From the NCBI GenBank assembly GCA_001897615.1, contig MKTG01000072.1, forward strand, positions 58,101-111,238: 53,138 nucleotides of DNA, written 5' to 3'. How positions within the stretch are numbered: the stretch's first letter is position 1; each line of letters begins with the position of its first letter. The notes beneath the pieces are model-generated. The model was given only the letters and a program-made list of their open reading frames with translations, was not told the origin of the DNA and did no database searches. Positions 1 to 52,888 of this stretch are shown piece after piece. The position numbers and the translations under genes are program-made. Source of the stretch: Burkholderiales bacterium 68-10 (GTDB lineage: Bacteria; Pseudomonadota; Gammaproteobacteria; Burkholderiales; Burkholderiaceae_C).

Positions 1-507
1 TACACGACGCGCGTGCTGGCGCAGCTTAAGCGCACCGGGGCGGACGGCGCCGTGGTGCCGCGCATCGTCTTCACCAAGGGCGGCGGGCTGTGGCTGCCCG
101 AGATGGCGGCGCTGGACTGCGACGTGCTGGGCCTGGACTGGACCATGAACCTGGGCACGGCGCGCCGCATGGTGCAGCAGGCGGCGGCATCCGTAACTCC
201 TGAAATCATAGCTGCCGGCGCAGGCCAGGCGAGCGCCAACACCTCGAAATCCTTGCAAAATCGCCCCCCCAAGGCGCTGCAGGGCAACATCGACCCCAAC
301 GTGCTGTTCGCCCCGCCCGAGGCCATCCGCGCCGAAGTGCGCCGCGTGCTGGACAGCTTCGGCCGACCCCACACCGACCCCACAACGCCGGGCAGCACCC
401 ACATCTTCAACCTGGGCCACGGCATCAGCCAGCACACCCCGCCCGAGCACGTGACGCATCTGGTGGACGAAGTGCACCGCCATTCGCGCCACCTGCGGGC
501 GCGCTGA
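1..507 (+). CDS. hemE: Uroporphyrinogen decarboxylase, C-terminal part (5' truncated by window)
   Basis: [10 protein letters not shown]...[15 protein letters not shown] and [19 protein letters not shown]...[17 protein letters not shown] are HemE C-terminal motifs; carries an unusual ~30 aa insertion before ALQGN. Confidence 0.93.
192..265 (+). repeat. Dispersed repeat family A, in-frame copy in hemE
   Basis: TAACTCCTGAAATCATAGCTGCCGGCGCAGGCCAGGCGAGCGCCAACACC aligns with the 52591 copy. Confidence 0.75.
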
Positions 508-636
508 GCGCTTGAGTCGCCGTTCGGGCGGCACGGGCCCCAATGTCGGCGGGCAGCGCCCTACGCCGCCGGCCGGCCGGCGTCAAGCGCATTGCGCACG
601 ATTGTTGACACCAAACCGGGTGCTGTAGGGCTTGAC

Positions 637-645
637 TTATGCACA
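637..645 (+). promoter_or_regulatory. Putative DnaA box (TTATGCACA)
   Basis: Matches DnaA box consensus TTWTNCACA in the hemE-priA intergenic region. Confidence 0.5.
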
Positions 646-810
646 AAAACCCGAATGCCCCAACACCCGCACACCGCGCCAGCGCGGCCGCGCTATAAAA
701 CGCGAAGCGCTTGCAAGTTATTGATTTCATTGAACATCAAGTCCTGCTGCTTTGGCAGGCAGGACAAGGAAACCCTTGATTTTCAAGGCCTGCGGAGCGG
801 CCAGAGGGGA

Positions 811-831
811 TTCTCCACAAAGTTATCCACA
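811..831 (+). promoter_or_regulatory. Putative DnaA box pair (TTCTCCACA, TTATCCACA)
   Basis: Perfect TTATCCACA at 823-831 and one-mismatch box at 811-819, 12 bp apart. Confidence 0.6.
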
Positions 832-927
832 AAATCTGGGCATGACTTGGCAGACGCTTTCAAAACAAGGACTTAAGGCCGATAGTGCAAGTGGCGGCCC
901 GCCACATCGCCCTGGCCCGCCCACCCC

Positions 928-3036: not shown

Positions 3037-3105
3037 ACATCAGAAACGCGGAACCATCCTGCCCCGCGCCGACTCCACCATGGGCTGATCTGCAGGAGTG
3101 TCCGT

Positions 3106-3480: not shown

Positions 3481-3502
3481 CAGGCGTGTATCGTGGCGCC
3501 GC

Positions 3503-4363: not shown

Positions 4364-4390
4364 CGCCGGCAACGGCACAACGGGCCGCCC

Positions 4391-5365: not shown

Positions 5366-5411
5366 GCAGGATGCAAGCGTAGCAGGCGGCGCGGCTATCA
5401 TCGGCGCCCCC

Positions 5412-7463
5412 ATGTCCGACCGCCTGAACCTCGCCCAGCAGGACGCCGTGCATCACCTGCGCGGTCCGTGCCTGGTGCTGGCCGGCGCGGGCTCGGGCAA
5501 GACGCGCGTGATCACGCACAAGATCGCGCGGCTGATCGAGACCGGCGTGCAGCCCGCGCGCATCGCCGCCATCACCTTTACCAACAAGGCCGCGGCCGAG
5601 ATGCGCGAGCGCGCGCGCGCCCTGGTGGGCAAGGCGGCGGGCGAGGTGCTGATCTGCACCTTCCACGCCCTGGGTGTGCGCCTGCTGCGCGAAGACGGCG
5701 CGGTGCTGGGCCTCAAACCCCAGTTCAGCATCCTGGACAGCGACGACGTGCTGGGCCTGATCAAGGACTGTGGCGCGACGACGGACGCGGCGACGGCGCG
5801 CCAGTGGCAGTGGGCCATCAGCCGCTGGAAGAACGCCGGCCTGGACGCCGCCGCCGCTCTCGCGCAGGCCAGCGGCGAAGGCGAGCGCCAGACCGCGCTG
5901 CTGATGGCGCGCTACGAAGAGCGATTGAGCGCCTACCAGAGCGTGGACTTCGACGACCTGATCGGCCTGCCGCTGCGTTTGCTACAACAACATGAGCACG
6001 TCGCGCAGAAGTGGCAAGCGCGGCTGGCCCATGTGCTGGTGGACGAATACCAGGACACCAACGCCACCCAGTACGAGCTGATGAAGCGGCTGATCGGCGC
6101 GCAGGGCAGCTTCACCGCCGTGGGCGACGACGACCAGAGCATCTATGGCTGGCGCGGCGCCACGCTGGACAACCTGCGCCGGCTGCCGCAGGACTATCCG
6201 CAGCTCAAGGTCATCAAGCTGGAGCAGAACTACCGCTCCACCTCGGCCATCCTGCGCGCGGCCAACAACGTCATCGGCCCCAACCCCAAGTTGTTTGAAA
6301 AGCGCCTGTTCTCCGAGCTGGGCGAGGGCGAGCCGGTGCGCGTGGTCGACTGCGACCACGAGGCGCACGAGGCCGAGCGCGCGGTGGCGCGCATCCAGTC
6401 GCTGCGCGAAACCTCGCCGCACAAGGAGTGGCGCGACTTTGCCATCCTGTACCGCGCCAACCACCAGGCGCGCGTGTTCGAGCAGGCGCTGCGGCGCGCG
6501 CAGATTCCGTACAAGGTGTCGGGCGGGCAGAGCTTTTTCGACCGCGCCGAGATCAAGGATCTGTGCGCCTGGCTGCGCCTGTGGATCAACGAGGACGATG
6601 ACCCGGCCTTTCTGCGCGCCGTCACCGTTCCGAAGCGCGGCATCGGCCACCAGACGCTGGCCAGCCTGGGCGAGTTCGCCGGCAAGGCGCGGCTGTCGCT
6701 GTTTGGCGCGCTGTTCGCGCACTCGCTGCCGGCCGCGCTGCCGGCGCGCGCCATTGCCGGCCTGCACGAATTTGGCCGCCTGCTGAACGACTTGCGCCAT
6801 CGCGCCGGCCACACCACGGGGCACGAGGCGGCGCGCAGCTTCCTGGCCGACTGGCTGAAGGACATCGGCTACGAACAGCACCTGCACGACAGCGCCGACA
6901 GCGCGCCGCAGGCCAGCGCGCGCTGGCAGAACGTGCTGGAGTTTTGCGACTGGATGGCCGGCCGCTGCGGCGGGCAGATCGAGGACGCGGCCGGCGTCAC
7001 GCTGCGGCAGGAACCGAAAAGCCTGCTGGAGGTGGCGCAGACTATCTCGCTCATCTCCACCCTGAACGAGCGCGAGCAAGACCCGAACGTGGTCACCCTG
7101 TCCACCCTGCACGCCGCCAAGGGCCTGGAGTGGCCGCACGTCGTGCTGGCCGGCGTCACCGAGGGCCTGCTGCCGTTTCGCCCCGACGAGGACGCCGGCG
7201 CCGCCGCGCAGGCCGCGCGCATCGAGGAGGAACGCCGCCTGATGTACGTGGGCATCACGCGCGCCCAGCGCACCCTGGCCGTCAGCTGGACGCGCCGTCG
7301 CAAGCAGGGGCGCGAGATGGTCGCCGCGCGGCCCAGTCGCTTCATCGCCGAGATGGCGCTGGAGTCGGCCACCGTGCGCGAGGACCCGCGCGAAAAGCTC
7401 AAGGCCCTGCGCGCCGAGTTTGCCCGCCGCGCCGCCAGCACGCCACCGCAGACGGCACCATGA
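5412..7463 (+). CDS. rep: UvrD/Rep family ATP-dependent DNA helicase (Rep-like)
   Basis: LNLAQQDAVHHLRGPCLVLAGAGSGKTRVITHKI, VDEYQDTN, GDDDQSIYGWRGA, STLHAAKGLEWPHV. Confidence 0.92.
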   Translation: MSDRLNLAQQDAVHHLRGPCLVLAGAGSGKTRVITHKIARLIETGVQPARIAAITFTNKAAAEMRERARALVGKAAGEVLICTFHALGVRLLREDGAVLGLKPQFSILDSDDVLGLIKDCGATTDAATARQWQWAISRWKNAGLDAAAALAQASGEGERQTALLMARYEERLSAYQSVDFDDLIGLPLRLLQQHEHVAQKWQARLAHVLVDEYQDTNATQYELMKRLIGAQGSFTAVGDDDQSIYGWRGATLDNLRRLPQDYPQLKVIKLEQNYRSTSAILRAANNVIGPNPKLFEKRLFSELGEGEPVRVVDCDHEAHEAERAVARIQSLRETSPHKEWRDFAILYRANHQARVFEQALRRAQIPYKVSGGQSFFDRAEIKDLCAWLRLWINEDDDPAFLRAVTVPKRGIGHQTLASLGEFAGKARLSLFGALFAHSLPAALPARAIAGLHEFGRLLNDLRHRAGHTTGHEAARSFLADWLKDIGYEQHLHDSADSAPQASARWQNVLEFCDWMAGRCGGQIEDAAGVTLRQEPKSLLEVAQTISLISTLNEREQDPNVVTLSTLHAAKGLEWPHVVLAGVTEGLLPFRPDEDAGAAAQAARIEEERRLMYVGITRAQRTLAVSWTRRRKQGREMVAARPSRFIAEMALESATVREDPREKLKALRAEFARRAASTPPQTAP

Positions 7464-7473: not shown

Positions 7474-7959
7474 ATGAGTCGATTTACTATTCTTTTGGTA
7501 GCTGCTTGCGCTCTATCCGCCTGCGCTACAGGCCCAAACGATTTCTCACACCCAATCCGGGACGCGACGGCGGCGCAGCCCGTCAACCCCGCCTGCCCCG
7601 GCCTCAAGCGCTGGACGGCGCGCCAGCTCTACGGCACGTGGGAGGTCGAGCTGAGCGAGCTGGGCCTGCGCGGCCGGCTGGTGCTGCGCCAGCACCCCGA
7701 GTTCCTGGAGAGTCTGCGCGGCGAGTTCGATTTCGGCGGCCAGCAGGCCATCGCCTCGGGCGACATCGAGGAAGGCGAACTCAACCTCGACGAATCGCGC
7801 GACGGCAAGAGCCTGTTTGCCTTCTGGACTGGCCACCTGGTGCCCGCCGCCTGCGGCCGCGAAATCCGCGGCACCTGGCAGCTGCTGCCCAAGGACGGCC
7901 AGCCGGCGCGCGAAAGCCCCTTCGTGCTGCGGCGGGTGGCCGGCGATCGGGGTTGGTAG
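7474..7959 (+). CDS. Small hypothetical lipoprotein (signal peptide encoded by dispersed repeat)
   Basis: MSRFTILLVAACALSACATGP with lipobox LSAC; body conserved-looking (TARQLYGTWEVELSELGLRGRL.L.QHPEF). Confidence 0.75.
   Translation: MSRFTILLVAACALSACATGPNDFSHPIRDATAAQPVNPACPGLKRWTARQLYGTWEVELSELGLRGRLVLRQHPEFLESLRGEFDFGGQQAIASGDIEEGELNLDESRDGKSLFAFWTGHLVPAACGREIRGTWQLLPKDGQPARESPFVLRRVAGDRGW
7481..7543 (+). repeat. Dispersed repeat family A, encodes lipoprotein signal peptide
   Basis: TTTTGGTAGCTGCTTGCGCTCTATCCGCCTGCGCTACAGGCCCAAA, near-identical to the reverse complement of the 28071 copy. Confidence 0.8.
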
Positions 7960-7989: not shown

Positions 7990-8095
7990 ACATCCATACG
8001 CAGAGGGCGCAGAACAAACCAATTCTTCTGGCTGTTCTTTTGCGTCCTCTGCGGATCCTTTGCGCCCTCTGCGTTCGGCTGTTGGTTGTTTTTCT
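7990..8095 (+). repeat. Palindromic intergenic repeat family B (CGCAGAGG type), copy 1
   Basis: ACGCAGAGGGCGCA (7998-8011) / TGCGCCCTCTGCGT (8061-8074) plus inner TGCGTCCTCTGCGGATCC. Confidence 0.85.
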
Positions 8096-16150: not shown

Positions 16151-16330
16151 CGAATATTCCTTTCGTGAGGGTCGGGATGCACAGAAATAAAGCGGATCAG
16201 CCGGCCCGGGCGGCGGGCGCGGCGCCCGGCGCGCGCGGCAGCCGGGCAATGTCGTGGTCATGGTGCTCGGCGGTTTGCTCATGGCGCCGCATCCGTCGCG
16301 CGCTGACCTCCTCGTTTCAAGAGAAATCAG

Positions 16331-16385
16331 CGTACAACCCGCGCTCGATCAGCGCCAGCAGCTACAAAACCGGGAGCAATCAGGA
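16331..16385 (-). repeat. Dispersed repeat family A, at the 3' end of DUF2946 gene
   Basis: Reverse complement CCTGATTGCTCCCGGTTTTGTAGCTGCTGGCGCTGATCGAGCGCGGGTTGTA; its ccTGA supplies the stop codon. Confidence 0.7.
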
Positions 16386-17025: not shown

Positions 17026-17676
17026 ATGCTCAAACTCTGTGGCTTTGCCGCCAGCAACTACTACAACAAGGTCAAGCTCGCGCTGCTCGAAAAAGGCGTG
17101 CCGTTCGAGGAGGTCATCGCCTGGATGGGCGAGACCGACGCCGCCGCCAGCCCGCTGGGCAAGGTGCCCTACGTGCTCACCGACGAGGGGCCGATCAGCG
17201 AGTCGACCGTGATCCTGGAATACCTGGAGCAGCGCTACCCGCAACATCCCCTGCTGCCCGCCAACCCCTACCAGGCGGCCAAGGTGCGCGAGCTGCTGCG
17301 CTACATCGAGCTGCACCTGGAGCTGGTGGCGCGCAACCTGTACCCCGAGGCCTTCTTCGGCGGCCAGGTGAGCGACGGCCTGAAGGCCAAGCTGCGCCCG
17401 CAACTGGAGAAGAACATCGCCGCCTTCGGTCAACTGGCGGCGTTCTCGCCCTACGTGGCCGGCAACGCATTCACGCTGGCCGACTGCGCCGCCGCCGTGC
17501 ACCTGCCGCTGGTGGCCAGTTGCAGCAAGATCATCTACGGCGAAGATCTGCTGGCCGACCTGCCCGTCAAGGACTACCTCAAGCGCATGAGCGAGCGGCC
17601 GACGGTGCAGCAGGTGAACGCCGACCGCAAGACGAACACCGAGTTGATGATGGCACGGATGAAAGCCAAATCTTGA
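17026..17676 (+). CDS. Glutathione S-transferase family protein
   Basis: MLKLCGFAASNYYNKVKLALLEKGVPFEE...GKVPYVLTDEGPISESTVILEYLE. Confidence 0.93.
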   Translation: MLKLCGFAASNYYNKVKLALLEKGVPFEEVIAWMGETDAAASPLGKVPYVLTDEGPISESTVILEYLEQRYPQHPLLPANPYQAAKVRELLRYIELHLELVARNLYPEAFFGGQVSDGLKAKLRPQLEKNIAAFGQLAAFSPYVAGNAFTLADCAAAVHLPLVASCSKIIYGEDLLADLPVKDYLKRMSERPTVQQVNADRKTNTELMMARMKAKS

Positions 17677-17745
17677 GCAAAATCGAGTTCCAGCGCCCGC
17701 CAGTCAAGCGCTGGCAGCTATATTTTAAATAGCTATCAGTATTTG
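17674..17745 (-). repeat. Dispersed repeat family A, between convergent GST and enoyl-CoA hydratase genes
   Basis: Reverse complement ACTGATAGCTATTTAAAATATAGCTGCCAGCGCTTGACTGGCGGGCGCTGGAACTCGATTTTG. Confidence 0.75.
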
Positions 17746-20280: not shown

Positions 20281-20350
20281 AGTTTGCTATTTAATCAATA
20301 TCTTCTGGCGCATACCCACAAAGCGCTGGGGCGATATTTGAGGCTCTTCT
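20281..20350 (+). repeat. Dispersed repeat family A, intergenic
   Basis: TTTGCTATTTAATCAATATCTTCTGGCGCATACCCACAAAGCGCTGGGGCGATATTTG aligns with the 21631 copy. Confidence 0.75.
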
Positions 20351-20410
20351 CGCGAAGGATGGTGATGGCCTGCGAGACAAGGCTTCGAATGGTCGCTTAT
20401 TGGAAACCGC

Positions 20411-20532
20411 CAACCTCCGAACGCAGAGAGCGCAGAGATTTCGCAGAGGACGCAGAAAGCAAGAGGATCCATCGATTTTCTTTGCGTCCTCTGCGAATCC
20501 TTGGCGTCCTCTGCGTATGGCTGTTCATTTTT
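20411..20532 (+). repeat. Palindromic intergenic repeat family B, copy 2
   Basis: TTCGCAGAGGACGCA (20440-20454) / TGCGTCCTCTGCGAA (20483-20497), flanks match copies 1 and 3. Confidence 0.88.
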
Positions 20533-21630: not shown

Positions 21631-21690
21631 GACTATATTTTTGATAGCTGCTGGCGCTCGCCCACCAAGCGCTGGCGCCTTATTTGGCTA
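21631..21690 (+). repeat. Dispersed repeat family A, intergenic, overlapping the FAH gene stop codon
   Basis: TATTTTTGATAGCTGCTGGCGCTCGCCCACCAAGCGCTGGCGCCTTATTTGGCTAC. Confidence 0.85.
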
Positions 21691-22681
21691 CTTTTTGATC
21701 AATGGCACCGAACACCGAGCGGCCGTCGCGCCCCTTCATCTCGATGCGCACGGTGTCGCCGAACTTCATGTACTCGGTGCGCGGCGCGCCGTCCTGCAGG
21801 GTTTCCATGGCGCGCTTTTCGGCGATGCAGCCGTAGCCCTTGGGCCACTCGCGTCGGTCGTCCTGCTCGACGCCCGGATTGCTCACCGTGCCGCTGCCGA
21901 CGATGCTGCCGGCGCGCAGGCGCCGCGTGCGCGCGGCATGGGCGATCAGCTGGCCGAAGTGAAAGCGCATGTCGGGCCCGGCGTCGCACAGGCCGACCTT
22001 GCGGCCGTTCCAGCTTACTTGCAGCGTCAGGTGCACGCGGCCGTCCTGCCAGGCCTCGCCCAGCTCGTCGGGCGTGACGGCCACCGGGCTGAAAGCGGTC
22101 GACGGCTTGCCCTGCACCAGGCCCAGCCGGGTCTCGACCTCGGCCGCGATCAGCTCGCGCAGGCTGACGTCGTTGGCCAGCATGAGCAGGCGCACGGCGT
22201 CCAGCCCCTGCTCGGGCGTGGCGCCCATCGACACGTCGCCGGTGACCACGGCCAGCTCGCCCTCGAAGTCGATACCGAAGGCCTCGTCCGCCACCCGGAT
22301 GTCGTCGCAGGGGCCCAGGAAGTCGTCGCTGCCGCCCTGGTACATCAGCGGTTCGGTGTAGAAGCGCTCGGGCACGTCGGCGCGGCCGGCGGCGCGCACC
22401 AGCTCGACATGGTTCAGGTAGGCCGAGCCGTCCAGCCACTGATAGGCACGCGGCAGCGGCGCCATGCAGCGCTCGGGCTCGAACGGGAACGCGTGGCGCG
22501 CGCGGCCGGCGTTGAGCGCGTCGTACAGGTCCTGCAACTGCGGCGCCATGAAGTTCCAGTCGTCCAGCGCCTGCTGCAGGCGGCTGGCGATGCCGGTCGC
22601 ATAATGGGCCGTCGTCAGGTCGCGCGAGACGACCACCAGTTGCCCGTCGCGCGAGCCGTCTTTGTAGGTTGCCAGTTTCAT
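21680..22681 (-). CDS. Fumarylacetoacetate hydrolase family protein
   Basis: FEGELAVVTGDVSMG, GSGTVSN, EYMKFGDTVRIEM. Confidence 0.92.
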   Translation of the reverse strand: MKLATYKDGSRDGQLVVVSRDLTTAHYATGIASRLQQALDDWNFMAPQLQDLYDALNAGRARHAFPFEPERCMAPLPRAYQWLDGSAYLNHVELVRAAGRADVPERFYTEPLMYQGGSDDFLGPCDDIRVADEAFGIDFEGELAVVTGDVSMGATPEQGLDAVRLLMLANDVSLRELIAAEVETRLGLVQGKPSTAFSPVAVTPDELGEAWQDGRVHLTLQVSWNGRKVGLCDAGPDMRFHFGQLIAHAARTRRLRAGSIVGSGTVSNPGVEQDDRREWPKGYGCIAEKRAMETLQDGAPRTEYMKFGDTVRIEMKGRDGRSVFGAIDQKVAK

Positions 22682-25380: not shown

Positions 25381-26208
25381 ATGCCACGCCTGCTTCGCCC
25401 CCTCGCCGCGCTACTGGCCCTGCTGCTGAGTGCCTGCGCCCTGCCGCCGCTGGATGCCGAGAGGCAGGCCCGGCTGGCCAGCCTGCTGCCGGCCGATGCG
25501 CTGCTGCTGGGCGAGCAGCACGATGCGCCGGAGCACCAGCAGTTGCAGCGCCAGGTGGTGCAGTGGCTGGCCGATCGCGGCCAGCTGGCCGCCGTGGTGC
25601 TGGAGATGGCCGAAGCCGGACACGGCACGGCCGGCCTGCCGCCCGACGCCAGAGCGCGCCAGGTGCGCGCCGCCCTGGCCTGGGACGACGCGCGCTGGCC
25701 GTGGCGGACGTACGGCCCGGTGATCATGGCCGCCGTGGCCGCTGGCGCCCCGGTGCTGGGGGCCAACCTGTCGCTGGCGCAAATGCGCGAGGCCATGCGC
25801 CAGTCCGCGCTCGATGACCGCCTGCCCGCCGAGCTGCTGGCGGTGCAGCGTCAACGCATCCGCGACAGCCATTGCGGCCTGTTGCCCGAGCCACGGATCG
25901 ACCCCATGACACGGGTGCAGATCGCACGCGACATCGCCATGGCCGACGCCGTGGCGCGGGCCGCGCAACAAGCCGCGCCGGGCCGCGTGGTGCTGCTGAT
26001 CACCGGCAACGGCCATGTGCACCGCGCGCTCGGCGTGCCGCGCTTTCTGCCTGCTGATTTGAAGGCAAAAGTGCTTTCAGCGCAGGCACAGTCAGCGCAA
26101 GCAGCTATCGAAAATGAAGCGCTCGCCGACCGCGCCCTGCAGGCTGGCGACCTGCGCTGGCCCACCCCGCCGCTGCCGCCGCGCGACCCCTGCGCCACGC
26201 TGCGCTGA
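25381..26208 (+). CDS. ChaN family lipoprotein
   Basis: Lipobox LLSAC; ALLLGEQHDAPEHQQLQRQVVQWL, VLEMAEAG, LITGNGHVHRALGVPRFL. Confidence 0.85.
   Translation: MPRLLRPLAALLALLLSACALPPLDAERQARLASLLPADALLLGEQHDAPEHQQLQRQVVQWLADRGQLAAVVLEMAEAGHGTAGLPPDARARQVRAALAWDDARWPWRTYGPVIMAAVAAGAPVLGANLSLAQMREAMRQSALDDRLPAELLAVQRQRIRDSHCGLLPEPRIDPMTRVQIARDIAMADAVARAAQQAAPGRVVLLITGNGHVHRALGVPRFLPADLKAKVLSAQAQSAQAAIENEALADRALQAGDLRWPTPPLPPRDPCATLR
26050..26125 (-). repeat. Dispersed repeat family A, in-frame copy in ChaN-family gene
   Basis: Reverse complement CATTTTCGATAGCTGCTTGCGCTGACTGTGCCTGCGCTGAAAGCACTTTTGCC. Confidence 0.75.
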
Positions 26209-26214: not shown

Positions 26215-29200
26215 TCACCAGGTATCGACAAAGCGCGGCCCCGCCGCCGGCGCCACGCGCGCCGACGCCAGGCCACGCGCCAGCCAGGCCCGCGTATCAG
26301 ACGGGTCGATGACGGCGTCGATCTCCAGGGTGGTGGCCATGTGGGTCGCCGCGCCGTGCTCGTAGCGCTCGGCCAGCAGGCGAGCGAACAGCGCGTCGCG
26401 CTCGGGGCCTTCGGGCACCGCCGCCAGCTCCTTGCGAAAGCCCAGCCGCACATAGCCTTCCAGGCCCATGCCGCCGAACTCGCCGGTGGGCCAGGACACG
26501 GTGAACACCGGCGCATGAAAGCCGCCCGCGGCCATCGCCATCGCGCCCAGGCCGTAGCCCTTGCGCAGCACGACGCCGAACAGCGGCACGCGCAGCGCGG
26601 CGGCGGTGACGAACAGGCGGCTGACGTGGCGCACCTGCGCGGTCTTCTCGACCTCCGGGCCGACCATGAAGCCGGGCGTGTCGATCAGGCTGACGATGGG
26701 CAGGCCGTGCGCATTGCACAGCTGCATGAAGCGCGCGCCCTTGTCGGCCGCGTCGGCGTCGATGGCGCCGCCCAGGTGCAGCGGGTTGTTGGCCATCAGC
26801 CCCACCGGCCGCCCCTCGATGCGCGCCAGGGCCGTGTGGATGCCGGCGCCGAAGCCGGTGCGCAGCAGCATCAGGCTGCCCGCATCCACCAGCCCGGCCA
26901 TGGCGTCGCGGGTGTCGTACACGCGCAGGCGGTTTTCCGGCACCACGGCGCGCAGCGCGCGCTGGTCGGGCGTGACCCAGTCCTTCACCCGGCCCTGGAA
27001 GTAGCCCAGGTAATGCCGCGCCGCCACCACCGCCTGCGCCTCGTCGTCGACCAGCAAGTCAATCACGCCATTGCCGTGCTGCACCGGGCTGGGGCCGATC
27101 TCCTCGGGCCGGAACACGCCCAGGCCGCCCCCTTCGATCATGGCCGGCCCGCCCATGCCGATGTGGCTGGCGCGGGTGGCGATGATGACGTCGCTGCAAC
27201 CCAGCAGCGCGGCGTTGCCGGCAAAGCAGTAGCCATGCACCACGCCCACCACCGGCACCCGGCCCGACAGCGCGGCGTAGGCGGCGAAGGTGCCCACGTG
27301 CAGGCCGGCCACCACCGGCACGTCGACATCGGCGGGCCGGCCGCCGCCGCCCTCGGCAAACAGTACCACGGGCAGTTGCTGCTCTAGCGCGATGGCCAGC
27401 ATGCGGTCGGTCTTGGCGTGGTTGCGCATGCCCTGGGTGCCGGCCAGCACGGTGGCGTCGTAGCCCATGACCACGGTGCGCGCCGCCTCGGCGCCGAAGA
27501 TCAGGCCGTTGACGCCGCCAATGCCCGTCACCATGCCGTCGGCCGGGGTGTTGGCGATCAGGTCGGGCATGCTGCGCCGGCGCGTCTGCGCCGCCACGGC
27601 CAGCGCGCCGTATTCGATGAAGCTGCCGTCGTCGCACAGGTCGGCGATGTTCTCGCGCACGGTGCGCCCGCCGCGGGCATGGCGCGCGGCCACGGCGTCG
27701 GGGCGCGCGGCATCCAGCGTGAAGGCCTGGCGGTCGAGCACGCGCCGCAGGTCGGCGCGGATGTGGTCCGGGTCGTGCGCGGCGGCGGCCGCCTGCTGCC
27801 CGGCATCGCCCACGTCGAGCTCTTCCAGCACCAGCAGCACGTCGCCCTGCGCCACGTAGGCGCCGGGTTCGACGAAGCACTGGCGCAGCACGCCCGCATG
27901 CGGCGCGGTGAGCACGTGCTCCATCTTCATGGCCTCCAGCACCGCCAGCTCGGCACCGGCCGCCACCGTGTCCCCGGGTGCCACCGACAGCTGCACCACG
28001 CGCGCCGGCATGGGCGCCAGCACCGCGCCCTCGGGGGCTTCGCCGGCCGGCAGGGCGTGCGGCGGTTCGGCATCATTTTGGCCTGTAGCGCCCGCCTGAT
28101 CTGCGCAAGCAGCTATCTTTTGCGCAGCATCCAGCAGCTCGGGCAACGCCGATTCCAGCCAGCGCGTGTGCACCGCCTGGCTGGCCATCTCGGGCCGCTC
28201 GGCCAGCGCGCGCAGCAGCGCCAGGTTGGTGGCCACGCCATCGATGCGCGTTTCGGTCAGCGCGCGGCGCGAGCGGCGCAGCACGTCGGCAAAGTCATGG
28301 CCGGGCGCGTGCACGATCAGCTTGGCCAGCAGGCTGTCGTAGTGTGGCGAGGGCGTGGCACCGGCCACGCCGTGCGTGTCCACCCGCACGCCCGGGCCGG
28401 CCGGCAGGTCGAAGCGCGTCAGCCGCCCGCTGCCCGGCGTGGCGCTGCCATCCGCCGCCAGGGTCTCGGCGTTGATGCGCCACTGGATGGCATGGCCGCG
28501 CGGCGGCGGTGGCGCGGCGGCGTCCAGCCCGGCGTCGGCCAGGCGCTGGCCGGCGGCCAGCCGCAGCTGGGTCTGCACCAGGTCGACCCCGGTGACGGCC
28601 TCGGTGATGGTGTGCTCGACCTGCAGGCGCGCGTTGGCCTCGATGAACACATAGGGCAGCGTGTCCGATGCCGCATCGACCAGGAATTCGAACGTGCCCA
28701 GGCCCTCGTAGCGCAGCTCGCGCGCCATGCGCAGGGCGCTGTCGACGAGGCGCTGGCGCAGCGGCGCCGGCAGGCTGGGGCTGGGGGCGATCTCGACCAG
28801 CTTCTGGAAGCGCCGCTGCAGCGTGCATTCGCGCTCGCCCAGCGCCATCACGTCGCGGCCGTCGCCCAGCACCTGCACTTCGATGTGGCGCGCGCGGCGC
28901 ATCAGGCGCTCCACATACACGTCGGCGATGCCGAAGGCGGCCTGCGCTTCGCCGCGGCAGCGCGCGTAGGCGGCGGCCAGCGCGGCCTCGTCCTCGACGG
29001 CGCGCATGCCGCGTCCGCCGCCGCCGCCCACCGCCTTGATGACGATGCCGGCCTGCGCGTGCTCGCGAAAGAAGGCCTGCGCCTGCTCCAGCGTCACCGC
29101 GTGCTGCGTGCCGGGCAGCAGCGGCACGTCGCAGCGCAGGGCCAGCGCGCGCGCCTGCGCCTTGTCGCCAAACAGCGCCAGCTGCTCGGGCGTGGGGCCG

Positions 29201-29505
29201 ATGAAGCGCACACCCGCCGCCGCGCAGTCGCGCGCGAAGTCGGCGCGCTCGGCCAGAAAGCCGTAGCCCGGGTGCAGCGCGTCGGCGCCGTGCTCGCGCG
29301 CAATCGCCAGCAGCCGCGCGCCATCCAGATAGGCGGTTGGCCCGGTGGCGCCCAGCGCCTGCGCCGCGTCGGCCGCCTGCACATGCGGCGCCCGCGCGTC
29401 GTCGTCGGCGTAAACCGCCAGGCTCGGAATGCCCAGGTCCTGCAGGGCGCGCACGATGCGCAGGGCGATTTCGCCGCGGTTGGCGATCAGTACTTTGTGG
29501 AACAT
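26215..29505 (-). CDS. Single-chain biotin-dependent acyl-CoA carboxylase (biotin carboxylase, BCCP and carboxyltransferase domains fused)
   Basis: MFHKVLIANRGEIALRIVRALQDLG; AVGGGGGRGMRAV; VLEAMKMEHVL biotinylation motif; carboxyltransferase VVMGYDATVLAGTQGMRNHAK...DTPGFMVGPEVE...MAMAAGGFHAPVFTVSWPTGEFGGMGLEG; ~1096 aa. Confidence 0.92.
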   Translation of the reverse strand: MFHKVLIANRGEIALRIVRALQDLGIPSLAVYADDDARAPHVQAADAAQALGATGPTAYLDGARLLAIAREHGADALHPGYGFLAERADFARDCAAAGVRFIGPTPEQLALFGDKAQARALALRCDVPLLPGTQHAVTLEQAQAFFREHAQAGIVIKAVGGGGGRGMRAVEDEAALAAAYARCRGEAQAAFGIADVYVERLMRRARHIEVQVLGDGRDVMALGERECTLQRRFQKLVEIAPSPSLPAPLRQRLVDSALRMARELRYEGLGTFEFLVDAASDTLPYVFIEANARLQVEHTITEAVTGVDLVQTQLRLAAGQRLADAGLDAAAPPPPRGHAIQWRINAETLAADGSATPGSGRLTRFDLPAGPGVRVDTHGVAGATPSPHYDSLLAKLIVHAPGHDFADVLRRSRRALTETRIDGVATNLALLRALAERPEMASQAVHTRWLESALPELLDAAQKIAACADQAGATGQNDAEPPHALPAGEAPEGAVLAPMPARVVQLSVAPGDTVAAGAELAVLEAMKMEHVLTAPHAGVLRQCFVEPGAYVAQGDVLLVLEELDVGDAGQQAAAAAHDPDHIRADLRRVLDRQAFTLDAARPDAVAARHARGGRTVRENIADLCDDGSFIEYGALAVAAQTRRRSMPDLIANTPADGMVTGIGGVNGLIFGAEAARTVVMGYDATVLAGTQGMRNHAKTDRMLAIALEQQLPVVLFAEGGGGRPADVDVPVVAGLHVGTFAAYAALSGRVPVVGVVHGYCFAGNAALLGCSDVIIATRASHIGMGGPAMIEGGGLGVFRPEEIGPSPVQHGNGVIDLLVDDEAQAVVAARHYLGYFQGRVKDWVTPDQRALRAVVPENRLRVYDTRDAMAGLVDAGSLMLLRTGFGAGIHTALARIEGRPVGLMANNPLHLGGAIDADAADKGARFMQLCNAHGLPIVSLIDTPGFMVGPEVEKTAQVRHVSRLFVTAAALRVPLFGVVLRKGYGLGAMAMAAGGFHAPVFTVSWPTGEFGGMGLEGYVRLGFRKELAAVPEGPERDALFARLLAERYEHGAATHMATTLEIDAVIDPSDTRAWLARGLASARVAPAAGPRFVDTW
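28071..28125 (-). repeat. Dispersed repeat family A, in-frame copy in acyl-CoA carboxylase linker
   Basis: Reverse complement GCAAAAGATAGCTGCTTGCGCAGATCAGGCGGGCGCTACAGGCCAAAATGATG. Confidence 0.85.
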
Positions 29506-29619
29506 GGGCAATGCCTTGGGAAGGTTCGAAACACGGATAGCCGTGCGCCGAGGACGCAGCGGGCGCTTCGAGCAGTGTTCTGGGGCGCCATGGCGCACGG
29601 CAGTGGCGACGCGCTGGCG

Positions 29620-31340: not shown

Positions 31341-32189
31341 ATGCAAGACACCTACATCCTGACCCTGTCCTGCCCGGACCAGCGCGGCATCGTGCATGCC
31401 GTCTCGGGCTTTCTGATGGAGCGCGGCGGCAATATCGAGGAAGCCGCGCAGTTCAACGACCACGGCACCGGCCTGTTCTTCATGCGGGTGCAGTTTGCCT
31501 GCGCCGAGCTGGACGCCGGCGCGCTGCGCGCGCAGCTGACCGTGCTGGCCGAGCGCTTTGCCATGCGCTGGCAGCTGCACGAGGCGGCGCAGCCCATGCG
31601 CACCGTGATCTTCGTCAGCCGCGAGGGCCATTGCCTGAACGACCTGCTGTTCCGCTGGAAGAGCGGGCTGCTGCCGCTGGACATCCGCGCCATCGTCAGC
31701 AACCACCGCGACTTCTACCAGCTGGCGGCCAGCTACAACGTGCCGTTTCACCACATCGCCGTCACGCGCGACCACAAGGCGCAGGCCGAGGCACGGCAGC
31801 TGGAGATCATCGACGGCGAGGACGCCGAGCTGGTGGTGCTGGCGCGCTACATGCAGGTCCTGTCGGACGGGATGTGCCAGCGGCTGGCCGGGCGCGCCAT
31901 CAACATCCACCACAGCTTTCTGCCCAGCTTCAAGGGCGCGCGGCCCTACTGGCAGGCGCACGAGCGCGGCGTCAAGCTGATCGGCGCCACCGCGCACTAC
32001 GTGACGGCCGACCTGGACGAAGGCCCGATCATCGAGCAGGACGTGGCCCGCGTCGACCACAGCGCCACGGTGGAGGACCTGACCGCCGTCGGCCGCGACA
32101 CCGAAAGCCAGGTGCTGGCGCGCGCCGTCAAGTGGCACAGCGAGCACCGCGTGCTGCTGAACGGGCAGCGGACGGTGGTGTTTCGATGA
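31341..32189 (+). CDS. purU: Formyltetrahydrofolate deformylase
   Basis: ACT-type N-terminus YILTLSCPDQRGIVHAVSGFL; INIHHSFLPSFKGARPYWQAHERGVKLIGATAHYVTADLDEGPIIEQ. Confidence 0.96.
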   Translation: MQDTYILTLSCPDQRGIVHAVSGFLMERGGNIEEAAQFNDHGTGLFFMRVQFACAELDAGALRAQLTVLAERFAMRWQLHEAAQPMRTVIFVSREGHCLNDLLFRWKSGLLPLDIRAIVSNHRDFYQLAASYNVPFHHIAVTRDHKAQAEARQLEIIDGEDAELVVLARYMQVLSDGMCQRLAGRAINIHHSFLPSFKGARPYWQAHERGVKLIGATAHYVTADLDEGPIIEQDVARVDHSATVEDLTAVGRDTESQVLARAVKWHSEHRVLLNGQRTVVFR

Positions 32190-32323
32190 CGCAATGACTT
32201 CGCCGCGGGCGCGGCGTCCATGACGAGATGACCGGACGCCAGCGCCGAGGGCAGCCGCCGGGGCAAGCCATGACCCTCCTGTCATGGCGCGCAGCGCCGC
32301 CATCGAAGGCCGTCAGGCCCGGG

Positions 32324-33031
32324 TCATTGCCGTGATGGTTTGACTGCGCGCGTGCCAAAAATCGCCGAGCCCACCCGCACCATGGTGCTGCCGGCGGCCA
32401 CCGCCGCTTCCAGATCGTCGCTCATGCCCATGGACAGCGTGTCCAGCCCCAGGCCGGCCGCATTCAACTGGTCAAAAAGGGCTCTGGCGCTTGCGTGGAC
32501 TGCGCGAGCAGCTTCGAAATCAGGAGCAGGATCGGGGATCGTCATGAGCCCGCGCAGGCGCAGCCTCGGCAGCGCCGCCACCGCCTGCGCGAGGGCCAGC
32601 GCCTCGGCCGGCGCCACGCCGGACTTGGTGGGCCCGCCGTCGATGTTGACCTGCAGGCACAGGTTCAGCGGCGGCAGGCCGGGCGGGCGCTGCGCCGACA
32701 GGCGCTCGGCGGTCTTCAGCCGGTCGACGCCGTGGGCCCAGTCGAACTGCTCGGCCACCAGGCGGGTCTTGTTGCTCTGGATCGGGCCGATGCAGTGCCA
32801 GCGCAGCTGGCCGCGCAGATCGGCCAGGGCGGCGATCTTGTCCACGCCTTCCTGGATGTAGTTCTCGCCGAAATCGCGCTGCCCGGCGGCGGCGGCGGCG
32901 CGCACCGCCTCGGGGCCGAAGGTCTTGGAGACAGCCAGCAGCGTGACATCCTGCACATTGCGCCCGGCCTGTTGACAGGCTGTGGCAATCCGTGCACGCA
33001 CGTGTTGGAGCTTGGCGGCGATCGTCGTCAT
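32324..33031 (-). CDS. YggS family pyridoxal phosphate homeostasis protein
   Basis: VTLLAVSKTFGPEAVRAAAAAGQRDFGENYIQEGVDKI; LDTLSMGMSDDLEAAVAAGSTMVRVGSAIFG. Confidence 0.95.
   Translation of the reverse strand: MTTIAAKLQHVRARIATACQQAGRNVQDVTLLAVSKTFGPEAVRAAAAAGQRDFGENYIQEGVDKIAALADLRGQLRWHCIGPIQSNKTRLVAEQFDWAHGVDRLKTAERLSAQRPPGLPPLNLCLQVNIDGGPTKSGVAPAEALALAQAVAALPRLRLRGLMTIPDPAPDFEAARAVHASARALFDQLNAAGLGLDTLSMGMSDDLEAAVAAGSTMVRVGSAIFGTRAVKPSRQ
32471..32530 (-). repeat. Dispersed repeat family A, in-frame copy in yggS
   Basis: Reverse complement GCTCCTGATTTCGAAGCTGCTCGCGCAGTCCACGCAAGCGCCAGAGCCCTTTTTGACC. Confidence 0.8.
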
Positions 33032-39215: not shown

Positions 39216-39310
39216 GCTCGCGCGACGCAGGCGAGGGGGTCGAGCCGCGCCGCCCTTGCCCCACGGCAATCCGCCCAGCTCGCCCAGCCACGCCGAATTC
39301 AGAGTCAGAT

Positions 39311-39366
39311 CAGGCGACAGCGCTTATGCAGACTGCGCAGACAGCTATGTTATTCATAGCTATCGC
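39311..39366 (-). repeat. Dispersed repeat family A, intergenic (rsmI / SEC-C gene)
   Basis: Reverse complement GATAGCTATGAATAACATAGCTGTCTGCGCAGTCTGCATAAGCGCTGTCGCCTGATC. Confidence 0.7.
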
Positions 39367-40267: not shown

Positions 40268-41173
40268 TCAGCGCCTGCGCAGGCCCAGCCATATCACGGC
40301 GCCGACCACCACCAGTGCGCCGGCCACCTGCACCGGCGCCACGGCCTGCCCCAGCACCAGCCAGGCCAGGATGAGGGCGAACACCGGCTCCACGTTCATG
40401 ATGGCCGAGTTGCCCACCACGCCCAGGCGCGGCAGCACGGTGAACAGCAGGGTGATGCCGGTGCCGTACAGCAGGGTCAGCAGCGCCAGCCCCCACCAGC
40501 CGGGCGCGGCCCGCGGCAGCGCCAGCCCGCCCCCTGCCAGCGCCGCCGCGCCGGCCAGCAGGCCGACGATGGCCATGGTGGCAAAGGTGCGCAGGCGCCC
40601 GTCCAGCCCGCCGGCCTCGTGCTGCGTCAGCACCAGCGCCAGGCCGAAGGTGGCGGCCGCGCCCAGCGCAAACGCCACGCCGGCGCCGATCTGGTGCCAC
40701 TGGCCGGCCGCCCCCAGGCCGGAGGCTGCCCCCAGCACGTCCAGCGCCAGCACCAGGCCCAGCAGGATCACCGGCATGGCGATGAGCACCGTGCGCTCGG
40801 GTCGGTGCTGGTAGAGCACGCGCGCCCACAGCGCCGTCATCAGCGGGAAGCTGTTGAACACCAGCAGCGCCAGCGCCACCGGCAGCCGCGCCACGGCCGA
40901 ATACAGGCACAGGCTCTGCACCGCCACCAGCGCGCCGATCAGCGGCAGCGCCTTGCGCTGGCGGGCGTTCAGCGTCAGCGGCACCCGCTGGATCAGCAGC
41001 AACGCGCCCACCACCAGTGCCGTGCCGACGCTGCGCACGGTGACGGCGGTGGGCACGTCCACCCCATGGTTGAAGGCCATCCGCGCCGACACATGGTTGG
41101 CCGCCATCAGCAGGGCGATCAGCAGCAGCGTGGCAAAACCGGCGGCCGCGCGCGCCGACAGGCGATCAGACAT
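40268..41173 (-). CDS. EamA/DMT family transporter
   Basis: 10-TM DMT-type sequence. Confidence 0.88.
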
Positions 41174-42164
41174 ACAGCCCGCGCACCCGCGCATGCAGCC
41201 GCGCCAGGCCCAGCAGCGCGTCGGTGAAGGGCGTGGCCACGCCGGTCAGCTGCCCCAGCTCGCGCACCGAGGCGACCAGCGCGTCCAGCTCGACCGACCG
41301 GCCGGCCTCCACGTCCTGCAGCATCGAGGGCTTGAAGGCGCCCAGCTTGCGCGTCACCGCATGGCGATCCTCGGGCGTCTGATCGATCGGCACGCCGATG
41401 CGCGCGCCGATCTCGCGCGCCTCCAGCATCACGGCGCTGACGAAGCCGCGCGCCAGATCGTCATCCAGGATGCGGTCGGCGGTGGCGCCGGTGAAGGCGC
41501 TGATGGGGTTGATCGTCATATTGCCCCATAGCTTGTACCAGACGTCCTTCTGGATCTGTGCCGACACCGTTGTGTCGAAGCCTGCCTGGCGCAGCAGCGC
41601 CGCCAGTGACGCGAGGCGCGGCGTGTCGCCGCCGGCCGGCTCGCCCACGATCAGGCCGTTGCCGAAGTGGCGCCGGATCACGCCCGGCTCGTCGACCGAG
41701 CAGCTGGCATGCACCACGCAGCCGATCACGCGCCGCGCGTCGATGGCCTGCGCGATGGCGCCGCCCGGATCGACCGACTCCAGCCGCGTGCCGGCCAGCG
41801 GCCCGCCAAAGCCCTGCAAAAACCACCACGGCACGCCGTTCATGGCCGTCAGCACGGCGGTATCCGGGCCCAGCAGCGGCGCGATGGCGCGCGCCACCTC
41901 GGCCATGGCCGGCGCCTTGACGGCGACGATCACCAGGTCTTGCGGGCCCAGATCAAACGGGCTGTCGCTGGCCTGCACGGCAAACGCACGCTCGGCCACC
42001 GCGCCATCGGCCCCCGCCTCGCGCAGGCGCAGCCCGTGCGTGCGCAACGCCGCCAGCGTGGCGCCGCGCGCCACCGCGCTCACGGCAGCGCCCTGTGCGG
42101 CCAGCCGCGCGCCCAGCCAGCCACCGATGGCGCCGGCGCCGTAGATGCAGATTTTTTGAGTCAT
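41166..42164 (-). CDS. 2-dehydropantoate 2-reductase (ketopantoate reductase family)
   Basis: KICIYGAGAIGGWLGARLA; NDxxPISAFTGAT-like NMTINPISAFTGATADRIL. Confidence 0.92.
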   Translation of the reverse strand: MTQKICIYGAGAIGGWLGARLAAQGAAVSAVARGATLAALRTHGLRLREAGADGAVAERAFAVQASDSPFDLGPQDLVIVAVKAPAMAEVARAIAPLLGPDTAVLTAMNGVPWWFLQGFGGPLAGTRLESVDPGGAIAQAIDARRVIGCVVHASCSVDEPGVIRRHFGNGLIVGEPAGGDTPRLASLAALLRQAGFDTTVSAQIQKDVWYKLWGNMTINPISAFTGATADRILDDDLARGFVSAVMLEAREIGARIGVPIDQTPEDRHAVTRKLGAFKPSMLQDVEAGRSVELDALVASVRELGQLTGVATPFTDALLGLARLHARVRGLYV

Positions 42165-42225
42165 ATTGGTCTTCAGCGCTTTACCATCAAGCGCAAACAG
42201 CTATATATTTGATAGTTAACTTGAC
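42161..42225 (-). repeat. Dispersed repeat family A, intergenic, carries the ketopantoate reductase start codon
   Basis: Reverse complement ACTATCAAATATATAGCTGTTTGCGCTTGATGGTAAAGCGCTGAAGACCAATATGACTC. Confidence 0.8.
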
Positions 42226-45469: not shown

Positions 45470-45474
45470 GGTGT

Positions 45475-46290: not shown

Positions 46291-46291
46291 G

Positions 46292-46750: not shown

Positions 46751-46777
46751 GGTGAATTCAGTCAACCAGACAGATCT

Positions 46778-46864: not shown

Positions 46865-46881
46865 GAAACAAAGGTCACGAC

Positions 46882-48746: not shown

Positions 48747-48820
48747 GTCGCGCTCCCGAGGCGATGGGGGATGGGGTAGGTCATTCGTGTCTCCTGTTCT
48801 CGTAGGGGCAAAGGGGCGGA

Positions 48821-49786
48821 TCAGTTGTCGGCGCTGATGCCGGCCCGCCGAATCACCTCGGCGTAGCGCGCGGTCTCGCTGGCGATGAAGTCGGCAAACT
48901 GCTGCGGCGTTCCCGATTTGGCGGCGATGCCACCCTTCTGGAACGCCTCGACGACAGCGGGCTGCCGCATGGCCTCGTTGACGGCGGCGTTCATGCGCTG
49001 CACCACGGCATCGGGCACGCCGGCGGGCGCCAGCAGGCCGTTCCAGGAATTGGACTCGATCTTGAGCCCCTGCTCGGCCAGCGTGGGGATGTCGGGCGCG
49101 TACTGCGAGCGCTGCGCCGTGGCCATGCCGATGGCCACCAGCTTGCCCGACTGCACGTGGCCGCGGAACTCGGGCCAGTTGCCGAACATCATCGACACCT
49201 GGCCGCCCAGCAGGTCGGCCAGCGCCGGGGCCTGGCCCTTGTAGGGCACGTGCACGATGTCGACGCCCAGCTGGCTCTTGAGCATTTCGCCCGCCAGATG
49301 TGCCGAGGTACCGTTGCCAAACGAGGCGTAGCTGAGCTTCTTGCTCGCCTTGACCTGGGCCACGATGTCGGCCACGTTCTTCAAGCCGCTGGCCGGGTGC
49401 GTGGCCAGCACGTGCTCGGACAGACCCATCAGCGCCACCGGCCGCAAGTCCTTCAAGCCGTCGTAGGGCAGCTTCTTGACCAGCGTCTGGTTGACGGTGA
49501 AGCTGTTGGCCACGGTGACGAAGCTGCTGCCATCGGGCACCGACTTGGCCACGCTGTCGACCCCGATCACGGTGCCGGCGCCGGGCTTGTTCTCGATCAT
49601 CACCGGCTGGCCCAGCGACTTGGCCAGTTCGGCCGCCACCAGGCGGGTGACAAAATCGGTGGTGCCGCCAGGCGTGAAGGGCACGACGATGCGGATCGCC
49701 TTGGTCGGCCACTGACTTTGGGCGCGCGCCGCCAAGGGCGCGAAGGCGGCCGCTGCCGCGGCCTGAATGAAATGTCGACGTTGCAT
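48821..49786 (-). CDS. Bug-family tripartite tricarboxylate transporter substrate-binding protein
   Basis: Signal peptide; WPTKAIRIVVPFTPGGTTDFVTRLVA...NKPGAGTVIG. Confidence 0.93.
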   Translation of the reverse strand: MQRRHFIQAAAAAAFAPLAARAQSQWPTKAIRIVVPFTPGGTTDFVTRLVAAELAKSLGQPVMIENKPGAGTVIGVDSVAKSVPDGSSFVTVANSFTVNQTLVKKLPYDGLKDLRPVALMGLSEHVLATHPASGLKNVADIVAQVKASKKLSYASFGNGTSAHLAGEMLKSQLGVDIVHVPYKGQAPALADLLGGQVSMMFGNWPEFRGHVQSGKLVAIGMATAQRSQYAPDIPTLAEQGLKIESNSWNGLLAPAGVPDAVVQRMNAAVNEAMRQPAVVEAFQKGGIAAKSGTPQQFADFIASETARYAEVIRRAGISADN

Positions 49787-49789
49787 GGT

Positions 49790-51259: not shown

Positions 51260-51291
51260 GGAGATTCAAGGTTGTTGGGGGGCGATGCGGT

Positions 51292-51412
51292 AAACAGCCG
51301 CACGCAGAGGGCGCAGAGATTTCGCGGAGGACGCAGAAAATTCAAGAAATTGAAATGGGTTTTCTGCGCCTTCTGCGTGACTTTCGCGGCCTCTGCGTTC
51401 GGAGGTTCTGAA
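51292..51412 (-). repeat. Palindromic intergenic repeat family B, copy 3 (between hpaE and hpaG2)
   Basis: CACGCAGAGGGCGCAGAGATTTCGCGGAGGACGCAGAAAA ... TTTTCTGCGCCTTCTGCGTGACTTTCGCGGCCTCTGCGTTCGGAGGTT. Confidence 0.88.
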
Positions 51413-51413
51413 T

Positions 51414-52190
51414 TCATTGCGCCGCCCCCACCATGGTGGTCTGCAGGGCGCCGAGGCCTTCGATTTCGCACACCACCACGGCGCCGACCGGGCAGTCCAC
51501 CACGCCGTCGGGGGTGCCGGTCAGGATCAGATCGCCCGGGTACAGCGTCATGAAGCTGCTGAAGTACTCGATCAGCGTGGGCACGTCGAACACCATGTCG
51601 GCGGTGCTGCCCTGCTGGGTCCGCTGGCCGTTGACGGTGGTGGTCAGGCGCAGGTTCATGGGGTCGGGCACGTCGGCGGCGTCGACCAGCCAGGGGCCGA
51701 TGGGGGTGCAGGTGTCGCGGTTCTTCACGCGCAGGTTGGGCCGATACCAGTTTTCCAGGTAGTCGCGGATGGCGAAGTCGTTGGCGACGGTGTAGCCCGC
51801 GATGAAGTCGTAAGCGTCGCTCTTTTTCACCTTCTTGGCTTCGCGGCCGATGACAACGGCCAGTTCGCATTCGTAGTGCATGTTCTGCACGCCGTCGGGG
51901 CGAACGGTGAATGCGCGGTGGCCGATCAGCGAGGCGGCGCCCTTGGCAAAGGCCAGCGGCTCCTCGGGCGGCTTGAAGGCCAGCTCGCGCGCGTGGTCGG
52001 CGTAGTTCAGGCCCAGCGCCAGCACCGTGCGCGAGCGGTGCGCCGGCATGGGCGCCAGCGGCGGCAGCCAGACCACGTCGTCAAAACCGACGCGCCGGCC
52101 CTTGAAGGCGGGTGTCAGCAGCTTGAGCTGGCCATCGGCTTCGACGGCTTCATGAACCGCGCCGGCCCAGGCGATGCGGGCGTGTTTCAT
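51414..52190 (-). CDS. HpaG2-type decarboxylase/isomerase subunit (FAH family)
   Basis: VLALGLNYADHARELAFKPPEEPLAFAKG; FTVANDFAIRDYLENWYRPNLRVKNRDTCTPIGPWLV. Confidence 0.88.
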   Translation of the reverse strand: MKHARIAWAGAVHEAVEADGQLKLLTPAFKGRRVGFDDVVWLPPLAPMPAHRSRTVLALGLNYADHARELAFKPPEEPLAFAKGAASLIGHRAFTVRPDGVQNMHYECELAVVIGREAKKVKKSDAYDFIAGYTVANDFAIRDYLENWYRPNLRVKNRDTCTPIGPWLVDAADVPDPMNLRLTTTVNGQRTQQGSTADMVFDVPTLIEYFSSFMTLYPGDLILTGTPDGVVDCPVGAVVVCEIEGLGALQTTMVGAAQ

Positions 52191-52888
52191 GCGTCCTCCT
52201 TCACCAGCGTGTGCACCAGCGGCGCGAAGCCCGGCGCGCGAATCTCGATCCGGTCACCGGCACCCGCCAGCGGACGGCTGCCGTCATCCAGACAGTCGGT
52301 GCCCAGCATCAGCACGTCGCCAGGTTGCAGCGTCATGAATTCGCCCACGTCGGCCAGCAGCGCGGCCGCGTCGCGCACCAGGGTGGCGAGCGCCACCGTC
52401 TGCACGCGTTCGCCGTTGACGCGCACCTCGATCGACAGCGCCTCGATCTGCGCCGCCGTCAGCGGCGCCACGGGCGTGCCGCAGACCAGGAAGCCGTCGC
52501 GGTTGCGAAAGCGGATCGGCGGGCGGTAGTAGCTGGCGTGCGGCAGGCTGAGATCGTTCAGCAGCACGCAGCCGGCGACGATGGGCCAGCCATTTACTCC
52601 TGAATCAATAGCTGCTTGCGCACGTTGCGCAAGCGCTGTCGCCCGATTCGACTCATCGCCGATCAGCAGGCCCAGGGTCGCCCCCAGGTGCACCGGCGCC
52701 GGCACGGCCACGGTGGCGCCGTGGGTGGCGAAGGTGTTGGCGGTCTTGACGTACAGCACCGGCGCGCGGGGCGCGGCCTGGTAGGGCGGCTCGCTCATCT
52801 TCGGCGTCCACAGCGCGTATTCGCGCCGCAGGTTCAGCAGCGGGCCATACACGGTGCCGCTGGGCAGCCATGGCAGGACAGGGGTCAT
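52187..52888 (-). CDS. HpaG1-type isomerase/decarboxylase subunit (FAH family)
   Basis: GTVYGPLLNLRREYALW...PVLYVKTANTFATHGA; ATGA overlap with HpaG2. Confidence 0.88.
   Translation of the reverse strand: MTPVLPWLPSGTVYGPLLNLRREYALWTPKMSEPPYQAAPRAPVLYVKTANTFATHGATVAVPAPVHLGATLGLLIGDESNRATALAQRAQAAIDSGVNGWPIVAGCVLLNDLSLPHASYYRPPIRFRNRDGFLVCGTPVAPLTAAQIEALSIEVRVNGERVQTVALATLVRDAAALLADVGEFMTLQPGDVLMLGTDCLDDGSRPLAGAGDRIEIRAPGFAPLVHTLVKEDA
52591..52650 (+). repeat. Dispersed repeat family A, in-frame copy in the HpaG1-type gene
   Basis: TTACTCCTGAATCAATAGCTGCTTGCGCACGTTGCGCAAGCGCTGTCGCCCGATTCGA. Confidence 0.85.

Follow-up and report, generated by a model that had tools for sequence, protein, structure and literature searches.

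A degenerate motif repeated in the window

The stretch analysed here, called the window throughout, comprises 53,138 nucleotides of Burkholderiales bacterium 68-10 (contig MKTG01000072.1, positions 58,101-111,238, assembly GCA_001897615.1), and window coordinates count from its first base. Twelve copies of one motif occur in it, within genes as well as between them, and they align without gaps across 62 columns. This family is very probably a DNA recognition motif, about 62 bp long, that is maintained genome-wide, and not primarily a mobile element. An original prediction, made from the letters of the window, had described about 13 copies sharing an imperfect palindrome; the family proved real, with 12 copies at the positions that the prediction gave, but the palindrome is restricted to one of several sequence variants, or dialects (dialect I). 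The host genome (G000; 3.64 Mb, 99.99% complete) was compared with related genomes, which are denoted by further G codes and of which G020 is the closest relative. The copies in the window are:

195..256, + strand: sense, in frame within HemE; net gain of ~24 aa relative to motif-free relatives
7485..7546, + strand: directly past a gene whose end is at 7463
16317..16378, - strand: intergenic; position and orientation shared with G010, G003, G023 and G014
17673..17734, - strand: in a gap between convergent genes, where it overlaps the + strand gene's stop codon; G017 has a copy there, and the G010 sequence is decayed
20285..20346, + strand: intergenic
21631..21692, + strand: intergenic; present in the closest relative G020 with its core intact
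26060..26121, - strand: antisense, in frame within a ChaN-like gene (25381-26208, +)
28068..28129, - strand: sense, in frame, in the linker preceding the biotinyl domain of a biotin carboxylase/carboxyltransferase fusion (26215-29598, -)
32467..32528, - strand: sense, in frame within yggS (32324-33031, -); nothing inserted, the codons instead rewritten to match the motif
39300..39361, - strand: intergenic; position conserved in G010 and G023
42156..42217, - strand: overlapping the start codon of a ketopantoate reductase-like gene (41166-42164, -)
52595..52656, + strand: antisense, in frame within an FAA-hydrolase/HpaG-like gene (52187-52888, -); top score genome-wide

Five of these copies are in frame inside genes (HemE, ChaN-like, the biotin carboxylase/carboxyltransferase fusion, YggS and FAA-hydrolase/HpaG-like). 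The site in the ChaN-like gene is also occupied in G020, G003, G011, G008, G016, G017 and G018.

Copy number, distribution and genomic setting

A covariance model trained on the 12 window copies was used to scan G000 and its relatives. All training copies were recovered with expectation values (E) of 3e-13 or lower, the next candidates in the window having values of 0.009 or worse. Across G000 there are at least 150 copies with E <= 1.5e-5, and 441 kb of this genome hold 96 copies at E < 1e-3, about 1 per 4.6 kb, which extrapolates to ~790 per genome. The copy number in G000 is far above chance expectation, as the original prediction of a genuine family implied. Also as predicted, similar sequences occur in other Comamonadaceae: the model matches 29 of 61 related genomes, all of the same family, with a patchy distribution within the genus, and copies near hemE were found at named loci in Paracidovorax, Comamonas, Acidovorax, Simplicispira, Polaromonas, Xenophilus and Rhodoferax. 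No match to the dialect I model was obtained in 24 other families of the order.

When genes were called from codon content in the same 441 kb, 28 of the 96 copies fell in open frame within genes; 16 in-frame copies share one sense frame and 6 share one antisense frame, in agreement with the predicted retention of the reading frame in both orientations. The remaining copies had been placed at gene edges, and there is indeed an enrichment between genes and at gene ends, with 28 intergenic copies in convergent gaps and only 2 of 99 in divergent (promoter-type) gaps. The spacing of sites is not regular (coefficient of variation 1.25 versus 0.97 for random positions), and no strong strand bias was seen in the contigs examined. 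Positions and orientations of sites are mostly kept across the genus. A 42-kb copy-free gap in G000 (contig C71, 33.9-76.0 kb; L038-L040) contains Mu-like prophage genes (terminase, gpT, I protein), and such an absence is expected if sites build up only in long-resident DNA.

Two plasmids carry related sequence. In pP11b (NZ_MZ513635.1; L424:1501-1540), a 40-nt piece that is 92.5% identical to the consensus of the GCGC dialect lies within a DUF1010 gene cassette between dfrA12 and aadA2 of a class 1 integron, and the same consensus query matches 1775 plasmid records, mainly from Enterobacteriaceae; the presence of the motif may betray a Comamonadaceae origin of this cassette. Plasmid pADP-1 (NC_004956.1; L425:2001-2060) has a diverged copy (77% to consensus) with IS1071 on one side and an amidohydrolase gene on the other, which hints that this part of the plasmid stems from Comamonadaceae.

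Anatomy of the motif and its dialects

The 96 copies from G000 contain 52 bits of information over 62 columns, with the consensus [TC][AG]CT-N4-6-AAT-NN-ATAGCTGCTgGCGC-N11-GCGCtggaGcCC-n-ATTTGAC. A/T tracts flank the core, and the flanks outside the 62-bp motif carry no signal. Pairwise identity among the copies is 56% on average and 77% at most, while core columns are 93-100% conserved, a pattern that uniform decay of old insertions would not yield.

Other species use other cores. At orthologous coding sites, dialect I scores of mostly 40-65 give way to values from -41 to 27 in G007, with only PurK holding 39.5, and the G007 sites instead share a different core while their flanks and much of the peptide are retained. 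This dialect II reads GCT-N..AAT..ATAGCT-CTCAGGAT-N5-CACGCCGAC (core CAGGAT-N5-CACGCCGAC) and also occurs at orthologous sites. An iterated motif search found 69 such sites in 347 kb of G007, a normal density, whereas Markov shuffles gave no site at that threshold. Genus-wide, the dialect II model has at least 88 matches in G007, 34 weaker ones in G025 and 0-10 elsewhere; judging from these counts and a few loci, G025 is a possible intermediate between dialects I and II. Dialect III, found in G005, has the core GTCCTAGTG and reads ATAGCA-gA-GTCCTAGTGgAA; its model has at least 88 matches in G005, three weak ones in G015 and none elsewhere in the genus. A fourth core, TGCG..AAGGGC, is present at a few sites in another genus (G031). 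A further motif search, seeded with dialect II in G034, ended in noise.

All dialects share an RCT-N9-RTAGC anchor, and the 3′ A/T tract is part of the common architecture as well. In G000 the N9 gap between RCT and RTAGC occurs 129 times, compared with a mean of 16 for other gaps. This spacing is also enriched in G007, G005, G029 and G031, and no enrichment was found in G012, G024 and G034.

The capacity to fold is not a shared property. The mean hairpin z-score relative to shuffles is -1.72 for dialect I, whose palindrome is GCGC-N11-GCGC, compared with -0.19 for dialect II and -0.26 for dialect III, which fold no better than shuffles. RNAalifold predicted four pairs or none, covariation in dialect I is weak, and Rfam 15 gave no match above the gathering score. 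A conserved RNA hairpin was ruled out on the grounds of this weak covariation and of the other dialects having no hairpin.

Core letters persist where the codon position is synonymous

For ten coding copies, G000 was set against the orthologs of relatives at intermediate distance (G003, G010, G014, G018 and G023). Third codon positions in these relatives match G000 in 201 of 210 core columns, as against 265 of 504 variable columns. Fourfold-degenerate codons ending in A or T are kept in 76 of 78 cases at core columns, compared with 2 of 25 in flanks of the same genes (Fisher's test, 1.6e-18). The core letters are held by a force acting at the level of DNA, even where the codon position is synonymous. 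Copies in sense (YggS, UDG) and in antisense (PurK) are both kept, and therefore the force works on DNA and not on transcripts.

Insertion versus codon rewriting in host genes

The original prediction had also held that at least five copies were inserted into otherwise conserved proteins with the frame kept. Five copies are indeed in frame, but the net length gain at coding sites is not constant, varying from 0 to +24 aa. HemE illustrates the upper end: the spacing between DW and LQGN is 52-61 residues in most motif-rich members of the genus, 28-32 in several motif-poor members and 40-50 in further ones, a net gain of ~24 aa, and elsewhere in Burkholderiales 78 loci have a spacing of 27-32; the resolution of the genus tree of HemE is too weak to separate loss from primary absence in the motif-poor members. 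Estimates from spans and alignments give net gains of ~19 aa in UDG, 8-14 in UvrA, 5-17 in RimO, 9-15 in TlyA, 0-4 in MoaC and 0-7 in GlpK.

YggS represents the opposite case. Motif-free genera have a peptide of equal length (PAPDFEAALAVHRRTRALFDHL versus PAPDFEAARAVHASARALFDQL) that is encoded by GC-rich codons, whereas the G000 codons end in A or T and spell the motif. PurK likewise shows no length gain, its codons being rewritten towards the motif. Because YggS and PurK gained no residues, sites do not appear to arise generally through the insertion of a unit. The yggS gene was also considered as the source of the family and ruled out, as the codons that other genera use for this peptide are unrelated.

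Where sites shared by genomes or missing from some of them were aligned, neither the alignments nor the flank profile revealed a target-site duplication or terminal inverted repeats, with diverged intergenic flanks limiting the power of this comparison, and clean-edged pairs of empty and occupied sites were not obtained from intergenic sequence that is too diverged. In the motif-free genus members G012 (L293, L301) and G024 (L280, L286), GlpK and MoaC have about the length seen in carriers and ordinary codons; these are possibly decayed former sites.

Candidate machinery

A search of 61 genomes for the Y1 transposase PF01797, the REP-associated tyrosine transposase (RAYT; REP, repetitive extragenic palindrome), found none in G000, G005, G016, G020 and G021. 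Single copies of PF01797 occur in non-carriers too, with no correlation to motif copy number. Linkage to a RAYT, which the original prediction had suggested looking for, was ruled out by its absence from the host and by this lack of correlation. ComEC was considered as a competence marker that might tell carriers from non-carriers and was dropped as near-universal. The ComEC gene is in pieces in motif-rich G003 (C1:3619011-3619842) and G032 (C1:1836740-1837544), where sequencing errors are possible.

Possible explanations for the maintained motif

The core is kept where the protein allows any letter, and some species have adopted new wordings; we therefore interpret the family as a recognised signal rather than as leftovers of a mobile element. 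Our best overall reading, held tentatively and at slightly under an even chance, is that of a recognition motif kept in trans, similar to uptake sequences and spread by molecular drive. A single putative trans-acting factor would read the motif, and a shift in the specificity of this factor would be followed by a shift of the sites to a new core. Competent cells might favour uptake of DNA carrying their own dialect, and recombination could then restore and spread matching sites. Sites would arise chiefly by point changes in permissive places such as gene ends and loops, sometimes with an in-frame gain in length. That DNA uptake is the underlying process is, by analogy, plausible but also somewhat short of an even proposition.

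Several observations weigh against this reading. A motif of 62 bp and 52 bits far exceeds known uptake sequences in length (those of Neisseriaceae have 10-12 nt), and a point-mutation model does not predict net gains of 10-24 aa, as seen in several genes. ComEC is nearly universal among carriers and non-carriers alike, and both the uptake role and its receptor are putative. Score-based site finding inflates column conservation within G000, although not in its orthologs, and the p-value for the fourfold-degenerate codons is optimistic since the ortholog comparisons share ancestry (five species, ten genes), with the contrast itself being very large. An alternative that we regard as possible, if on balance doubtful, is that the family represents a new class of motif: a 62-bp bipartite site, made up of a constant anchor and an exchangeable core, of which Comamonadaceae have hundreds of copies that change together into new dialects. 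Such a motif would overwrite codons as well as add in-frame peptides to conserved proteins, and its putative reader would be distinct from both pilin uptake receptors and RAYTs.

A serious rival, albeit a rather unlikely one, holds that each copy is bound by a protein that organises the chromosome or has another DNA-binding role (nucleoid, replication, segregation or repair) and is kept by direct weak selection, with dialects following changes in the protein. The evidence for maintenance and for dialects speaks for this explanation as well, as do the A/T tracts around the core and the irrelevance of transcription direction (antisense in PurK, sense in YggS). However, several hundred weakly selected sites would be hard to re-tune without drive, the spacing is irregular and strand bias not strong, and the absence of the motif from related genomes would imply that a central protein had been lost. 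Less likely again, and unlikely in absolute terms, are relics of a small mobile element (similar to Rickettsia palindromic elements (RPEs), miniature inverted-repeat transposable elements or REPs) that inserted in waves, so that dialects are successive subfamilies and coding copies tolerated linkers. The net in-frame gains at HemE, UDG, UvrA, RimO, TlyA and others would be explained in this way, and the enrichment at gene ends and the hairpin potential of the GCGC dialect are compatible with it. The original prediction had favoured such an RPE-like element tolerated or exapted as a protein linker, a view that is not supported in the form of a simple inserting element: YggS and PurK are unchanged in length, the core has been maintained at synonymous sites since the species separated, G007 has a new core at these very sites although it retains the flanks and much of the peptide, all copies are strongly diverged with no near-identical (recent) ones among the 96, no target-site duplication is seen, and the Y1 transposase is absent from the host and four relatives. 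The prediction as a whole is partly supported. Elements acting at the RNA level, for example intrinsic terminators or REP-like hairpins on transcripts, could account for the palindrome and for the 28 sites in convergent gaps, yet the numerous copies within genes on either strand, the hairpin potential of dialects II and III, which does not exceed that of shuffles, and the RNAalifold and Rfam results make this explanation highly improbable.

If the preferred reading of an uptake-like recognition motif is true, a family beyond Neisseriaceae and Pasteurellaceae tags its genome with a self-recognition signal, and species dialects could limit gene exchange. Many Comamonadaceae ‘repeats’ and odd peptide insertions would then be footprints of one process, and missing or wrong-dialect sites would reveal foreign DNA. 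For work on the co-evolution of a genome-wide motif with its reader, the genus would also provide a natural series that runs from dialect I through possible intermediates (G025, for example) to dialects II and III and to absence.

Other repeats in the window

A second repeat family (TTTGCGTCCTCTGCG.../...CGCAGAGGACGCAGAA), often in inverted pairs, is found at window positions 8038-8091, 20404-20458, 20481-20532, 51293-51338 and 51361-51414. At a syntenic gap, G008, G010 and G023 have a species variant with TTCGCG replacing CTGCG, and this family may have dialects too. Intergenic stretches at ~32179-32237 and 32280-32330 recur widely in relatives (query 2103-2161 and 2204-2253) and are a possible third family.

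Comparison with known systems

REPs are short imperfect palindromes, mostly extragenic, that occur in hundreds of copies; their sequence varies with the lineage, apart from a short 5′ block that is conserved. The motif described here resembles them in being a short imperfect palindrome with hundreds of mostly extragenic copies, lineage-specific sequence and a conserved 5′ block, but the host and several other carriers have no RAYT, the hairpin is not kept across dialects, and the motif is held inside genes at third codon positions. Chi, KOPS (FtsK-orienting polar sequences) and matS are genome-wide sites read by one protein in species-specific wording. The present motif shares such sites and wording; however, those sequences are 8-13 nt long and often strand-biased, in contrast to a 62-bp motif with no obvious strand bias in the contigs examined. 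The RPEs of Rickettsia are insertions of ~150 bp (PMC10969869). They are likewise palindromic (here in dialect I) and found both in frame within conserved proteins and between genes. The differences are the size of 62 nt, the lack of insertion in YggS and PurK, the maintenance at synonymous sites and the concerted change of the core.

The uptake sequences of Neisseriaceae form dialects around a conserved core, and some members of that family have none (PMC3630211). Such sequences build up through point mutation and molecular drive, with an excess in non-coding DNA (PMC1939737). In the literature searched, we found no report of an uptake-like motif of this kind for Burkholderiales, and neither the core sequences nor, as predicted, a named element of Comamonadaceae. 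Compared with the DNA uptake sequences (DUS) of Neisseriaceae and the uptake signal sequences (USS) of Pasteurellaceae, the motif differs in being 62 bp long, degenerate and bipartite with A/T tracts where DUS and USS are near-exact 10-12 nt, in its lower density (~1 per 4-5 kb), in the length gain at some sites, in its occurrence in the order Burkholderiales and in having a putative uptake function and receptor. We do not claim membership among DUS and USS. The shared features are these: one motif is strongly over-represented genome-wide; there are hundreds to thousands of genic and intergenic sites per genome, which can arise without insertion, here at YggS and PurK; and lineage dialects have a common core, here the RCT-N9-RTAGC anchor, with some family members having no sites (PMC3630211, PMC1939737). 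Among known kinds of repeated sequence, uptake sequences are, by analogy, most likely the best fit.
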